A DNA stretch of 64,000 nucleotides from Aquimarina megaterium XH134 (GTDB lineage: Bacteria > Bacteroidota > Bacteroidia > Flavobacteriales > Flavobacteriaceae), in NCBI RefSeq assembly GCF_000520975.1, contig NZ_JACB01000032.1, positions 1 through 64,000 of the forward strand, read 5' to 3'. Shown one piece after another: positions 3,547-27,087 of the stretch (positions within the stretch are counted from its first letter, which is position 1; every line of letters starts with the position of its first letter). The notes beneath the pieces were generated by a model that did not search any database, was not told the DNA's origin, and saw nothing but the letters and a program-made list of their open reading frames with translations. A program made the translations under genes and the position numbers.

Positions 3547-3562
3547 TGTTCCACGTGGAACT
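3547..3562. other. parS: parS-like centromere site (A)
   Basis: Contains the perfect 14-bp palindrome GTTCCACGTGGAAC (3548-3561) and matches 15 of 16 bases of TGTTCCACGTGGAACA, the ParB-binding sequence known from several bacteria. It begins right at the stop codon of the 3561-4040 gene. Confidence 0.85.
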
Positions 3563-4040
3563 ATTCTTTAGATCTGTCATAAATTTCTACTCCCAAAAGC
3601 TCACTTAACTCATTAGCCTTTTCGGAAGCTTTATCATACTTTTCTGTTTTATAAAGTGTAAAATTCTTATTTCCGGTAAAAAAACGTACTACAATTTTAG
3701 GAGATCTTTCTTTTGTTCCAATTGCACTAACAGCACCCCACTCGTTATCTAAACTAAAAGAAGTTGAAAAAACCGAAATGTAATCTGGATATTCTAAATT
3801 GAGCTTTATTTTAAAAACAGGAAAACCGAAAACCGAAAAAAGTTTTTGATTATCAAAGTCTCCACTAATTTTATAAGAAACAGAATATCCAAATATAATT
3901 AAAGACGAAAGTAAAAAGAGCAATCTAGATAAAATTGACTCTTCTGTATAAAAAAGAAATGACACAGAAACCATCAAAAATACAACAGAAAGAATTCTTA
4001 CTTTTAAAGGTTTTTCTTGTTTACAAAACACACTATCCAT
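3561..4040 (-). CDS. Small membrane protein of unknown function
   Basis: A 159-residue protein with two hydrophobic segments near residues 12-32 and 34-53, then a soluble C-terminal part of about 100 residues with beta character. The fold of this part, a PH-like or DUF-type domain after two membrane helices, cannot be named with confidence. Its ATG overlaps the mnmG stop codon in a TAATG arrangement, which indicates translational coupling to mnmG. Its own stop codon abuts parS site A. Function unknown; location is the inner membrane. Confidence 0.75.
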   Translation of the reverse strand: MDSVFCKQEKPLKVRILSVVFLMVSVSFLFYTEESILSRLLFLLSSLIIFGYSVSYKISGDFDNQKLFSVFGFPVFKIKLNLEYPDYISVFSTSFSLDNEWGAVSAIGTKERSPKIVVRFFTGNKNFTLYKTEKYDKASEKANELSELLGVEIYDRSKE

Positions 4041-5911
4041 TACCTACCCATATAAACTAAAAGCACAGAAATATCACTTGGCGATACTCCACTAATTCGC
4101 GATGCTTGAGAAACGGTTGCCGGTTTAATTTTAGACATTTTCTCTCTTGCTTCAAAAGATAATGATTTCAGTTTTGTGTAATCAAAATTCTTAGGAATTT
4201 TTACATCCTCAAGCCGGTTTAATTTATCTGCATTGTTTTTTTCTTTTTCGATATAGCCAGAATATTTAACCTGGATCTCTGTTTGCTCTAAAACTTCTTT
4301 ATCCAAATTATTCTCCTCTATATAAGTAGAAACTTTTTTAAAGTGTCTTATATCATCCAAAGTAATCTGAGGTCGAGAAAATAATTTAAACATTTTTCCG
4401 CTCTGGTTGATCGGTGATGTTTTCTTTTCTTCTAAAACAGGATTTGCTTCTTCTGGAGAAACACTTGTGTCTTTAAAAAACTGAACAAAAGCACTTGCTT
4501 TTTTTTCCTTCTCTTCCATTCTTCTCATTCGATCATCTGAAGCTAATCCAATCTCATGAGATTTTGGTGTAAGTCTAAAATCTGCATTATCTTGCCTTAA
4601 TAAGGTTCTATACTCTGCACGTGAAGTAAACATTCTGTAAGGCTCTTCTGTTCCTTTGGTTATAAGATCATCTATTAAAACGCCTATATATGCTTCGCTT
4701 CTTTTAAGAATAAAAGATTGTTTTTCTTTTACTTTTAGAGCTGCATTTATTCCTGCCATTAATCCTTGAGATGCTGCTTCTTCATATCCTGTTGTTCCAT
4801 TAATTTGTCCAGCAAAAAACAATCCTGAAATCAATTTTGTTTCTAAAGTATGCGTTAATTGAGTTGGAGGAAAGTAATCATATTCTATAGCATATCCTGG
4901 TCTAAAAAATTTCACATTTTCAAAACCTGCCACAGACTTCAAGGCTTTAAATTGAACATCTTCTGGCAACGATGTAGAGAATCCATTTACATAAACCTCT
5001 ACGGTATTCCATCCTTCAGGTTCAACAAACAATTGATGTCTTTCTTTATCAGCAAATCTATTAATCTTATCTTCTATAGACGGGCAATACCTAGGTCCAA
5101 TACTTTTAATTCTACCATTAAACATTGGAGATCGATCAAAACCTTCTCGTAATAGATCATGTACCTCTAAAGAAGTATAAGTCATATGACATGATCTTTG
5201 TTTAGTAAGTGGTGTCGTTAAATTTGTATAGCTAAATTTTTCAGGATTATCATCTCCCGGTTGCTCAATCATTTTAGAATAATCCAAAGATCTTCCATCT
5301 ACTCTTGGAGGAGTTCCTGTTTTCATTCTACCGGCATCAAAACCAAAATTAATCAACTGTTCTGTTATACCAGTTGCCGCTTTTTCACCAGCTCTACCAC
5401 CACCAAATTGTTTTTCTCCAATATGAATTAATCCATTCAAAAATGTTCCATTTGTTAGCACAACAGTCTTCGCCTTTATTTCTAATCCTAAAGAAGTTTG
5501 AACTCCTTTTATTTTTCCATCCTCGACTAAAAGCCCGCTCACCATCTCCTGATAAAAATCCAAATTAGGGGTTTGTTCTAACAACAATCTCCACTCTTCA
5601 GCAAAACGCATTCTGTCACTTTGAACTCTTGGACTCCACATTGCAGGTCCTTTTGACTTATTCAACATTTTAAACTGTATCGCAGTACGATCACTCACGA
5701 TTCCACTGTATCCACCAAGTGCATCTATCTCTCTTACGATTTGCCCTTTTGCAATTCCTCCCATAGCAGGATTACAACTCATTTGCGCAATGTTTTGCAA
5801 ATTCATTGTAATAAGCAAAGTGCTACATCCTAAATTGGCAGCTGACGCTGCCGCCTCACTTCCGGCATGACCTGCACCCACCACTATAACATCATACTCC
5901 TTATCAAACAT
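4040..5911 (-). CDS. mnmG: tRNA uridine-5-carboxymethylaminomethyl modification enzyme MnmG (GidA)
   Basis: A 623-residue FAD enzyme, the usual length. With MnmE it installs the cmnm5 group on the wobble uridine of tRNAs. The FAD-binding glycine motif VVGAGHAGSEAA lies near residues 10-21. The family cysteine is in SCNPAMGG near residue 47, and the second in GPRYCPSIEDK near residue 276. GGRAGEKAATG and the C-terminal helical domain with SGVSPSDISVLL are also typical. The gene starts 15 nt from a parS-like site and its stop overlaps the start of the next membrane protein. mnmG is often origin-linked in bacteria, which agrees with the parS cluster. Confidence 0.97.
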   Translation of the reverse strand: MFDKEYDVIVVGAGHAGSEAAASAANLGCSTLLITMNLQNIAQMSCNPAMGGIAKGQIVREIDALGGYSGIVSDRTAIQFKMLNKSKGPAMWSPRVQSDRMRFAEEWRLLLEQTPNLDFYQEMVSGLLVEDGKIKGVQTSLGLEIKAKTVVLTNGTFLNGLIHIGEKQFGGGRAGEKAATGITEQLINFGFDAGRMKTGTPPRVDGRSLDYSKMIEQPGDDNPEKFSYTNLTTPLTKQRSCHMTYTSLEVHDLLREGFDRSPMFNGRIKSIGPRYCPSIEDKINRFADKERHQLFVEPEGWNTVEVYVNGFSTSLPEDVQFKALKSVAGFENVKFFRPGYAIEYDYFPPTQLTHTLETKLISGLFFAGQINGTTGYEEAASQGLMAGINAALKVKEKQSFILKRSEAYIGVLIDDLITKGTEEPYRMFTSRAEYRTLLRQDNADFRLTPKSHEIGLASDDRMRRMEEKEKKASAFVQFFKDTSVSPEEANPVLEEKKTSPINQSGKMFKLFSRPQITLDDIRHFKKVSTYIEENNLDKEVLEQTEIQVKYSGYIEKEKNNADKLNRLEDVKIPKNFDYTKLKSLSFEAREKMSKIKPATVSQASRISGVSPSDISVLLVYMGR

Positions 5912-5925
5912 AATTTCTATTCAAT

Positions 5926-5941
5926 TGTTCCACGTGGAACA
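5926..5941. other. parS: parS-like centromere site (B)
   Basis: Exact 16-bp TGTTCCACGTGGAACA palindrome, 15 bp upstream of the mnmG start codon. It is the first of three sites with centres about 41 and 49 bp apart. Confidence 0.9.
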
Positions 5942-5960
5942 CCATTTTATTATTCAAAAA

Positions 5961-5988
5961 AACAGTTGTTCCACGTGGAACAACTGTT
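5961..5988. other. parS: parS-like centromere site (C), extended palindrome
   Basis: Exact TGTTCCACGTGGAACA at 5967-5982. The symmetry continues outward six bases on each side (AACAGT / ACTGTT), giving a perfect 28-bp palindrome. It lies in the non-coding gap between ybeY and mnmG. Confidence 0.9.
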
Positions 5989-6010
5989 GCTTTATTACCA
6001 CTTATTCTAC

Positions 6011-6036
6011 ACTAATGTTCCACGTGGAACATTAGT
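6011..6036. other. parS: parS-like centromere site (D), extended palindrome
   Basis: Exact TGTTCCACGTGGAACA at 6016-6031 inside a perfect 26-bp palindrome. It overlaps the last codons and stop codon of ybeY, so the site itself encodes the C-terminal residues MFHVEH. Confidence 0.9.
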
Positions 6037-6431
6037 AGTTTTTCATTTTCCTTTTGTCTCATAAGCTTTTTCTCTTTTTCCAGCTTATCCTTATAACCGC
6101 AAAAATGCAATATACCATGTATCAAAACCCTTCTCATTTCTTCCTCAACAGAAACCATAAATTCCTTTGCATTCTCTGCTACTCTTTCTTCAGAAATAAA
6201 TATATCACCATTCAATTGATTACCCATTGTGTTATCAAAACTTATAATATCAGTGAATGTATCATGATTCAAAAAATCTTGATTAATTTTAAGTAGATAC
6301 TCATCATCACATAAGATAAAATTTATCTCTCCTTCTATCTTGTTCTCTGACGAAATAACAGCACTAATCCAAGAAGATAATGCAGTCTCATTTGGTAGCT
6401 CTATATTTGTCTCGTAAAAAAAATTAATCAT
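6012..6431 (-). CDS. ybeY: Endoribonuclease YbeY (rRNA maturation factor)
   Basis: A 139-residue metal-dependent RNase needed for 16S rRNA 3'-end maturation and ribosome quality control. The zinc-site motif is HGILHFCGYKD near residues 104-114; the third ligand position is Asp rather than the His of the E. coli motif, as in other Bacteroidota members. The start codon overlaps the end of the upstream DUF4175 gene by 8 nt, so the two are translationally coupled. The last codons are formed by a parS-like palindrome, which fixes the tail as MFHVEH. Length is normal for the family, slightly short. Confidence 0.93.
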   Translation of the reverse strand: MINFFYETNIELPNETALSSWISAVISSENKIEGEINFILCDDEYLLKINQDFLNHDTFTDIISFDNTMGNQLNGDIFISEERVAENAKEFMVSVEEEMRRVLIHGILHFCGYKDKLEKEKKLMRQKENEKLLMFHVEH

Positions 6432-21852: not shown

Positions 21853-22091
21853 TAATGTCTATTCTATATATTTATGATAAAAGTACAGCTTATCTTTTAA
21901 CATCTATAATTTTAACTTTAAACTTTTATTAATACTTAAATCATATTATCATCAAATAGCTCTAAAATCCATTATCTGTAAATCAAGATATTACATCAAA
22001 AAAAAGTAAATAATTACAGCTATTTTTCTTAAAATTTACTTAATTTTAGTACACTAGGATTCGATTTTATTCGTTTAGTATTTAATTCGAT

Positions 22092-22271
22092 ATGCACAAA
22101 ATCAAAAAAATACATAAGATCATATTACTCTTCATACTCATATTTCTATTGGGCATATATGCGTTTACCCTATACATTAATAATACAATAGATCATAAAC
22201 AAGATACTTTAGAAGGCTCAGAAATAAATAGTTCTGTAAAAACAGATCGTGAAGCCAGTCAAATCAATTAA
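22092..22271 (+). CDS. Small single-pass membrane protein
   Basis: A 59-residue frame starting at ATG 22092: a short basic N-terminus (MHKIKKIHK), one strongly hydrophobic helix (about residues 10-29, IILLFILIFLLGIYAF) and a polar C-terminal tail of 30 residues. The topology suggests an N-in, C-out single-pass protein. There is no family I recognise. Support is the clean hydrophobic profile, an ATG start and a position in a gap divergent from rnr; it could still be chance. Confidence 0.45.
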   Translation: MHKIKKIHKIILLFILIFLLGIYAFTLYINNTIDHKQDTLEGSEINSSVKTDREASQIN

Positions 22272-22399
22272 CCTTTTACTATAAAAAATTATTTATCAAT
22301 CTAGGAGAAATTGATATTCATTTTAATTAGTATCAATTTGATTGTTACGCTTATTTTGTATCTTGTAGAAATAAGATTATCAAGGAATAATTTTAAGAA

Positions 22400-22639
22400 A
22401 TGAAAGATTTTATTACTATTAAAACATATACATATCCTTTTGAGTATGCTATACTTAAACTACTTCTAGATCAAGAAGGTATTTCTTATTTCTTCGAAAA
22501 TGAAACAATGGTCGGTGTTTTTCCTTTCTACTCAAACGCACTGGGAGGTATTAATTTAAAAGTTCATCAAAAAGACAAAAACAAAGTACTTCAGATCATA
22601 AGTGATCTCAACACTAATTCTCATCTTAGAATTGTATAA
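22400..22639 (+). CDS. DUF2007-like small protein (putative signal-transducing protein)
   Basis: A 79-residue protein. The sequence KDFITIKTYTYPFEYAILKLLLDQEGISYFFENE, followed by a short loop and GGINLKVHQKDKNKVLQII, fits the DUF2007 family, a ferredoxin-like fold of 65-80 residues with unknown biochemical role, once described as a putative signal-transducing domain. No membrane segment. It stands alone between the small membrane protein and the long gene-free region upstream of rpiB. Confidence 0.75.
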   Translation: MKDFITIKTYTYPFEYAILKLLLDQEGISYFFENETMVGVFPFYSNALGGINLKVHQKDKNKVLQIISDLNTNSHLRIV

Positions 22640-23131
22640 TCTAGTATTCATATTTTCTTTATAGTTTTCAACATATATTAAATATATCTTTTTCTTTTTT
22701 TTAAATTTAAAATTAATAATGATGATTATAATATAGTGTGGATAGCGGTATAACTTTTTTAAGTTTTATTTGTTTTTTAAGTTAAACTGAATTTTGAAAA
22801 ATATATGAACAGGATATCATTATTCTAATTGCTTGAAAATGTTCTAAAAATGAAATTTAATTAACAACTGTTAATAGTTAATCAACAGCTTAATTTTTTA
22901 ATATTATTACGGCAAAACCGTAGTTTATAACATTAACTTAATACTTGAAAACTTAGCCAAAAAAAGAGAGTTTAAAATTTTGATTTCTTACTACTATACT
23001 TGTATTCTAATAAAAATCAAAACCACCAAAAAAACTTTATGAATTTTAAGAACTGTTTATTCACACTCAGTGTTAACAGAAGGTTATGAGTTATTAACAT
23101 TACCGTAATATTGGGTTAAATTATTGGTTTT
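22640..23131. other. Gene-free AT-rich region; weak origin candidate
   Basis: No open reading frame. An A/T run (22681-22735) is followed by TGTGGATAG (22736-22744, one mismatch to a DnaA box), TACGG-CAAAA-CCGTA hairpin (22908-22922) and TTATTCACA at 23057-23065, which fits TTATnCACA. TTATTAACA at 23091-23099 is a weaker match. The cluster is suggestive, not conclusive; it may only be a long leader or promoter region. Confidence 0.3.
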
Positions 23132-23158
23132 TTGGAGTTTACTTTTTTTAGATTAAAT

Positions 23159-23166
23159 TATCTTTG
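23159..23166 (+). promoter_or_regulatory. Probable -7 element of the rpiB operon
   Basis: TATCTTTG (TAnnTTTG) with a TTTG 24 nt upstream (23131-23134). It lies 25 bp before the ATG at 23192 and downstream of an alternative start at 23132, so the 23192 start is favoured. Confidence 0.55.
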
Positions 23167-23191
23167 CTTAACTAATGAAACGAACAAAAAA

Positions 23192-26703: not shown

Positions 26704-27087
26704 TTATTTTGATTTTATTTCTTGTTCGACAAATTTTTGTAATATTCCTTTTATTTTAGATTCTATTAATGAATATTCAGGTATTTCTTTACCTGAAAAT
26801 AAAAACATAAAAGTGAATTGATGAGTAGTGTTGGGTACAATATACTTATTTTTTCTATAACTTTCACGCATTAAACGCTTTATACAATTACGGTCTACTG
26901 CTTTTTTGAAGTTACGTTTGCTAACCGATACGCCAGCTCTAATTATAATACGCTCTCCAAAATTTGATTTTCTATATACTAATCTAACGGGATATTTGGA
27001 TATAGATTTTCCTTCAGAAAAAAGTAATTCTATTTCCTTTTTGCTTTTTAATCTTTCTTTTTTATTAAAAGTAGCATTCATTGGCAT
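26704..27087 (-). CDS. rnpA: Ribonuclease P protein component
   Basis: A 127-residue basic protein that supports the RNA subunit in 5' processing of tRNA precursors. The RNR signature KKAVDRNCIKRLMRE (about residues 60-75) and the FxxGK-like FSEGKSISKYPVRLVY near the start are typical. Two in-frame ATGs (27087 and 27081) are possible. Unusually for bacteria, rpmH does not lie beside it in this window; it instead neighbours the ctpA-like gene, 46 nt downstream. Confidence 0.93.
   Translation of the reverse strand: MPMNATFNKKERLKSKKEIELLFSEGKSISKYPVRLVYRKSNFGERIIIRAGVSVSKRNFKKAVDRNCIKRLMRESYRKNKYIVPNTTHQFTFMFLFSGKEIPEYSLIESKIKGILQKFVEQEIKSK

Follow-up and report, generated by a model that had tools for sequence, protein, structure and literature searches.

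The window analyzed here is a 64,000-nucleotide stretch of the Aquimarina megaterium XH134 genome (positions 1 to 64,000 of contig NZ_JACB01000032.1, assembly GCF_000520975.1). Its minus strand carries, in this order, ybeY (6431-6012), mnmG (5911-4040) and a 159-codon open reading frame (ORF; 4040-3561), and four copies of a 16-bp palindrome, designated sites A to D, lie in and around these genes. The analysis indicates, with a probability of about 0.7, that the four palindromes are the centromere of a ParABS system near the likely replication origin (oriC), and that sites D and C have also been built into intrinsic (Rho-independent) terminators. The features of the locus are as follows.

3547..3562, no strand: parS site A, one mismatch, with an intact 14-bp core whose end base doubles as the final base of the TAG stop of the 159-codon ORF (minus strand)
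3561..4040, minus strand: 159-codon ORF between mnmG and site A, without an NCBIfam match at E 0.001
4040..5911, minus strand: mnmG (gidA), TIGR00136, 860.9 bits (cut-off 524.85)
5926..5941, no strand: parS site B, exact; its core starts 29 nt upstream of the mnmG ATG and the site ends about 15 nt before that ATG; it has no arm extension and serves as a control site
5956..5988, minus strand: terminator-like element around site C, downstream of ybeY; a perfect 28-bp palindrome (5961-5988) with a run of seven T (minus strand, 5962-5956), the first two T lying inside the arm
5967..5982, no strand: parS site C, exact, in the ybeY-mnmG gap
6011..6036, minus strand: perfect 26-bp palindrome enclosing site D; ybeY coding sequence forms one arm, and the ybeY stop codon lies in the other
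6012..6431, minus strand: ybeY, rRNA maturation RNase, TIGR00043, 105.9 bits (cut-off 45)
6016..6031, no strand: parS site D, exact; it overlaps the 3' end of ybeY and encodes the last residues, MFHVEH (the protein ends LLMFHVEH, then stop)

The palindromes are few and clustered. A search of the window for TGTTCCACGTGGAACA with up to three mismatches returns exactly four matches, three exact and one with a single mismatch, at the positions that an earlier sequence-only reading of the window had given. That reading had also called chance clustering negligible, and rightly so: 100 dinucleotide shuffles of the window contain on average 0.11 matches and at most 2, and since none of the 100 reaches four, a chance origin of the cluster is rejected. 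The one mismatch of site A is confined to its outermost base, and the 14-bp core GTTCCACGTGGAAC is therefore intact at all four sites. The placement of the cluster around mnmG is likewise correct, with three sites between ybeY and mnmG, the first of them overlapping the end of ybeY, and one beyond mnmG and the 159-codon ORF. A scan of the whole genome (6,206,047 bases in 161 contigs, up to two mismatches), which the same reading had proposed, adds a single site with two mismatches on contig C14. All four core sites thus fall within 2.5 kb of a 6.2-Mb genome. Because the genome-wide occurrence is restricted to this cluster, the sites are not scattered, and a scattered-repeat origin is also rejected.

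By sequence, context and resident ParB, the four sites are the chromosomal parS of a ParABS system, with ParB binding predicted. The perfect parS of Pseudomonas aeruginosa is reported to be the same 16-bp palindrome, and a four-site cluster there lies closest to oriC (PMC4368675). The genome of A. megaterium XH134 encodes a single protein that matches TIGR00180, a ParB family model, at 173.5 bits (cut-off 58.45). It contains the motifs GERRFRA and ENIQR, and its closest solved structure is the ParB family protein 7bnk (E 6.3e-55). A ParA-like ATPase, named from its KGGVGKTT motif and from matches below curated cut-offs, adjoins parB, as ParB is accompanied by a ParA-like ATPase in other ParABS bacteria. 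ParB matches above the TIGR00180 cut-off were found in 14 of 14 genomes searched. One result points the other way, in that the best-scoring NCBIfam model for the resident ParB is nucleoid_noc, at 244.3 bits, under its own cut-off of 315. The consensus match, the genome-wide uniqueness of the sites and the ParB encoded beside a ParA-like ATPase bear out the identification as parS-type sites. In several respects the arrangement differs from that of P. aeruginosa and other ParABS bacteria: the sites flank mnmG, one of them inside the 3' end of ybeY; both parB and dnaA are distant, at 28-32% and 29-41% of the chromosome, respectively, in five genomes; and two of the sites bear species-specific complementary arms.

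In ParABS systems, parS is where ParB is loaded as a CTP-dependent clamp, from which it spreads; ParA separates the origin regions after replication. In A. megaterium, ParB produced from the parAB operon on another contig would load at the four sites as such a clamp and then spread, and ParA would move the origin region apart after replication. No match to the SMC model TIGR02168 over its curated cut-off was obtained in any of eight genomes (A. megaterium and seven relatives), although a diverged SMC may be encoded; the parS sites may therefore work without the usual SMC partner. Two gut Bacteroidetes are reported to lack a known condensin (PMC10197239).

The association of parS with mnmG extends beyond A. 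megaterium. All 33 genomes of the genus (A. megaterium and 32 relatives) contain GTTCCACGTGGAAC beside mnmG, in one to five copies each. Sites corresponding to D and to B are each present in 32 of the 33, and the sets of class D, C, B and A sites used below comprise 32, 32, 32 and 31 sites, respectively. Two loci from uncultured Aquimarina carry an mnmG 93% and 83% identical to that of A. megaterium, with parS and ybeY adjoining. Of the 246 genomes examined in the order, 170 contain GTTYCACGTGRAAC, those without it belonging chiefly to families f11 and f16, and 184 of 198 genomes across the phylum match parS. Among the matches listed, the first 117 of the scan, 30 of 36 tandem-parS loci from Bacteroidota have mnmG within 200 bp, the other six showing no mnmG in the stretch, and 9 of the 81 other loci have mnmG within that distance. 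Ten examined relatives outside the genus carry one site on each side of mnmG. The number of sites differs from that in the genus, two being usual in other Bacteroidota: this number was counted in 47 of the 51 f5 genomes and, within the window's own family, in 24 of the 27 genomes outside genera g1 and g21, whereas genus g21 has 3-10.

The cluster also coincides with a switch in strand composition. Third-position GC skew, computed per gene strand from sampled 20-kb stretches, changes from minus to plus at the cluster in all four relatives sampled (G005, G019 and G025, each a single contig, and G010, two contigs), with a resolution of 0.1-0.5 Mb. The switch lies at 3.50-3.58 Mb in G005 (parS at 3.48 Mb), 4.85-4.98 Mb in G025 (parS at 4.83 Mb), 0.44-0.80 Mb in G019 (parS at 0.815 Mb) and 1.22-1.73 Mb in G010 (parS at 1.75 Mb). 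The opposite switch is found about 2.5-3 Mb from the cluster in the same four genomes. The A. megaterium chromosome is in 161 contigs, and the origin-proximal location claimed for the cluster, as opposed to one near the terminus, is thus supported through these relatives. Two features of the data weaken the assignment. The skew of the A. megaterium contig turns from negative to positive gradually, between about 22 and 47 kb, and single stretches oppose the trend in G005 (at 1.26 Mb) and G025 (at 4.35 Mb), with one near zero in G019 (at 1.2 Mb).

It could be argued that the palindromes are repressor operators or a similar motif unrelated to ParB, since the position of site B, immediately before mnmG, would suit a repressor. 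Such an explanation is very improbable given the exact parS consensus, its occurrence in most genomes of the phylum, the position at the skew switch and the resident ParB. The parS cluster itself is ordinary, expected and well placed.

Less ordinary are the sequences that flank sites C and D, where the palindromes extend beyond the 16-bp site. Folded as RNA of the ybeY strand, the region around site C has a predicted energy of -18.5 kcal/mol (z -4.4) and that around site D -15.7 kcal/mol (z -5.3); the control sites B and A have z-scores of -1.5 and -1.9. Sites C and D of A. megaterium thus form stable predicted hairpins at a gene 3' end. They resemble intrinsic terminators in having a stable stem, a short loop and a position at the 3' end of a gene, and at site C a T-run comes next on the strand of that gene. 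What sets them apart from ordinary intrinsic terminators is that a conserved protein-binding centromere site makes up the loop and the apical half of the stem. A palindrome elsewhere in the genus, perfect over at least 62 bp, is centered on the only parS found in an 89%-complete genome (locus L176, G030:C308), about 30 bp past mnmG.

The arms of these hairpins vary among species, and their complementarity is retained. Among the 32 class D sites there are 28 distinct 12-nt left arms, yet at least eight extra pairs are formed in 14 of them. Over the first 12 arm positions, arms from the same site form more Watson-Crick pairs than arms swapped between species, both at D (8.16 versus 6.38) and at C (6.78 versus 5.22), a difference reached in none of 5000 permutations in either case. 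No excess is seen at the control sites (B, 4.25 versus 4.39, 3764 of 5000; A, 4.03 versus 4.12, 3398 of 5000). Compensatory double changes, in which one Watson-Crick pair is replaced by another through changes on both sides, number 30 at D and 26 at C on a tree of mnmG (G020, whose mnmG is cut, was left out, and C was counted once per genome in 28 genomes). Within positions 4-16 there are 21 such changes at D, compared to 1-6 when the partners are slid, and 20 at C, compared to 6-11, while the control sites stay within the slid range (B, 8 versus 6-12; A, 7 versus 3-8). The covariation score of D is 0.191, compared to 0.086 when shuffled (0 of 500) and 0.048-0.100 when slid, and 56 cells are changed on both sides, compared to 24.2 (0 of 500). 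Altogether, three of five covariation measures exceed their controls at D. Pairing at C and D has therefore been kept through compensatory changes, a pattern that fold-back mutation could also produce.

Extended parS sites are not confined to the genus. A set of 462 distinct sites was collected from other loci, nearly all outside the genus (two Aquimarina loci, L331 and L334, are included). Arms of at least 6 occur in 22 of these sites, compared to 1.1 expected when arms are swapped, and are thus about 20-fold commoner; arms of at least 8 occur in 12, compared to 0.11 expected. Of the 22 extended sites, one of which is L331, 18 adjoin a predicted stop codon at an ORF end, compared to 183 of the remaining 440 sites (Fisher p 2.5e-4; gene ends were called by a simple ORF script). 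Examples with an A-tract, a stem and a T-tract in succession are found in Chitinophaga and Rikenellaceae. The length of the ybeY-mnmG gap provides another comparison, for which, as for the class D set, G030 was excluded, its ybeY lying outside the stretch. None of the eight genomes with a gap of less than 60 nt has arms of at least 5, but 22 of the 34 genomes with a longer one do (p 0.001, uncorrected for relatedness). That hairpins are absent at short gaps and frequent at longer ones is consistent with a terminator mechanism.

The gene-end parS palindromes are best read, from sequence comparison, as having repeatedly become the apical stem-loop of predicted intrinsic terminators. A perfect palindrome at a gene end would be nearly a terminator already. 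The apical stem-loop would come from the parS palindrome, complementary arms that differ between lineages would lengthen the stem, and the T-rich tract present on the ybeY strand in many genomes would complete the terminator. Transcripts of ybeY would then stop inside the partition site, before mnmG, and ending transcription there may shield both mnmG expression and the ParB clamps from read-through.

The main alternative is that this is a plain parS cluster whose sites serve ParB only, the arms at D and C having arisen when a nascent strand folded back and copied its own arm, with no role in transcription. The arms are often perfect and longer than a terminator needs, with 18 pairs in the D arms of G009, G025 and G032 and no fewer than 24 at the mnmG end of G030, and the right arm mirrors the coding sequence exactly. 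However, the same core is present at A and B, where arms of at least 6 are found at only 1 of 63 sites (the A-class palindrome of G030), compared to 30 of the 64 sites of classes C and D, although the start of mnmG places an additional constraint on B. Also against copying are the preference of extended sites elsewhere for gene 3' ends (18 of 22) and a strand bias near site C: TTTT lies within 24 nt 3' of the site on the ybeY strand in 21 of 32 cases, compared to 4 of 32 for the opposite strand. Taken together, the lack of arms at A and B, the preference for gene ends and the uneven strand distribution of TTTT near C argue for termination, and the fold-back origin alone appears rather unlikely.

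Several observations nevertheless weigh against the terminator reading. Site D of A. megaterium has no T-run on the ybeY strand and is followed instead by AGTTTTTCAT on the plus strand. At class D sites in general, TTTT is found within 24 nt on the ybeY strand in 15 of 32 cases and on the other strand in all 32, the latter reflecting A-runs in the coding sequence. The flanking tracts are symmetric: of 11 positions, a mean of 5.8 are T directly after the C stem and 5.7 are A before it, and the corresponding values for D are 5.3 T and 7.0 A. Symmetric tracts fit bidirectional terminators as well as one-way terminators, or neither. The preference for G-U over A-C is weak (18 and 13 at D, 42 and 11 at C, where swapped arms give ratios of about 1.1 and 2.6). 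Two of the five covariation measures show no excess at D, with 8 pairs changed on both sides compared to 7.8 in shuffled arms (307 of 500) and 27 pair types compared to 25.4 (152 of 500). Finally, 12 of the 34 genomes with a gap of at least 60 nt lack the hairpin, and it is therefore not required. The symmetric tracts, the weak G-U preference, site D of A. megaterium and these 12 exceptions keep a mutational origin of the arms alive, or else point to terminators that act in both directions.

It might also be proposed that the extended palindromes work within the partition complex, either as DNA cruciforms or as larger sites for ParB, as the palindromy is exact on both strands and the sequences lie in a centromere. 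The 28 distinct left arms among 32 class D sites make this improbable, because such free variation argues against sequence recognition of the arms. In addition, sites A and B have no arms, and the parS tested in P. aeruginosa is described as 16 bp (PMC4368675).

Returning to parS sites built into terminators, a broader generalization is tentative and stands at slightly less than even odds: in many Bacteroidota lineages, parS sites at gene ends may have acted as terminator seeds, with arms rewritten in each species; a single element would then serve as a DNA site for clamp loading and as an RNA stop signal preventing transcription from entering the partition complex. No description of parS inside terminators was found among the titles and abstract beginnings of the open-access literature, and comparative work on parS (Livny et al. 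2007) may cover part of the subject; as far as that literature goes, terminator-embedded parS is new. A parS site embedded in a hairpin is a natural case of a sliding ParB clamp and RNA polymerase sharing DNA. It is also a testable one, since the arms can be broken and restored with the 16-bp parS untouched, which makes the role of the hairpin directly accessible to experiment.

The origin in this group of bacteria appears to be separated from dnaA. In five genomes (G002, G005, G010, G019 and G025, in all but the first of which the skew was sampled), dnaA is 29-41% of the chromosome away from parS (33-41% in the four with sampled skew). Because the skew switch is at parS and dnaA is so distant, the origin of the group is marked by parS and mnmG and not by dnaA, and the parS cluster thus points to the origin where dnaA lies a third of the chromosome away. 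Positions of parS beside dnaA or beside parB, which were considered, are both rejected by the distances. The separation of origin and dnaA is shared with other Bacteroidota, since in some gut bacteria the two are reported not always to lie together (PMC10197239). The distance between parB and parS is nearly constant in relative terms, at 28-32% of the chromosome in the same five genomes. The assembly of G010:C1 starts at dnaA (position 25), yet its skew places the origin at 1.22-1.73 Mb.

It is likely that oriC lies in the gap between rnr and rpiB (21853-23191), about 17 kb from the parS cluster and not near dnaA. The candidate within this gap is the following block.

22655..23150, no strand: candidate oriC, an AT-rich block (21% GC) of non-coding sequence between rnr and rpiB, at a distance of about 16.6 kb from site D

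The same gene order around the gap is present in 12 of 12 sampled relatives within the genus, 15-17 kb from ybeY where both are in the stretch, and in two g21 genomes; in the six other relatives examined, rnr and rpiB are not both contained in the 20-kb stretch. Across 15 genomes, 86 of the 496 columns of the block are invariant, compared to 9 of 240 in the adjoining small ORF, although mean identity is little different (0.78 and 0.75). The block contains GTGTGGATAGCGGTATAA and TTATTCACA. The motif TATTAACA occurs 37 times in the whole rnr-rpiB gaps of the 15 genomes, compared to 5.8 times in base-shuffled sequence, and twice in the A. megaterium block. Evidence from DnaA boxes is less favorable. 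The block holds one TTATNCACA box, for which reason it is called only a candidate, and no perfect TTATCCACA, the only two on the contig being at 70484 and 118605. A search with the Escherichia coli DnaA-box consensus gave no cluster near the skew switch, and the proposal of this block as a candidate oriC therefore rests on its conservation and position.

A few further observations concern the surroundings of the cluster. A scan for sigma-70-type promoters gave 13 sites compared to 11.4 in shuffled sequence, which is not an excess, and tRNA and Rfam scans of the window detected one tRNA-Cys and nothing more. The gene rnpA (26704-27087, TIGR00188), which in other bacteria usually adjoins dnaA and oriC, is separated from mnmG by about 21 kb, as though a piece of an ancestral origin neighborhood had stayed in place while dnaA and parAB moved off. 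The distance of site A from the mnmG ATG is exactly 2350 bp in 18 of the 33 genomes of the genus.

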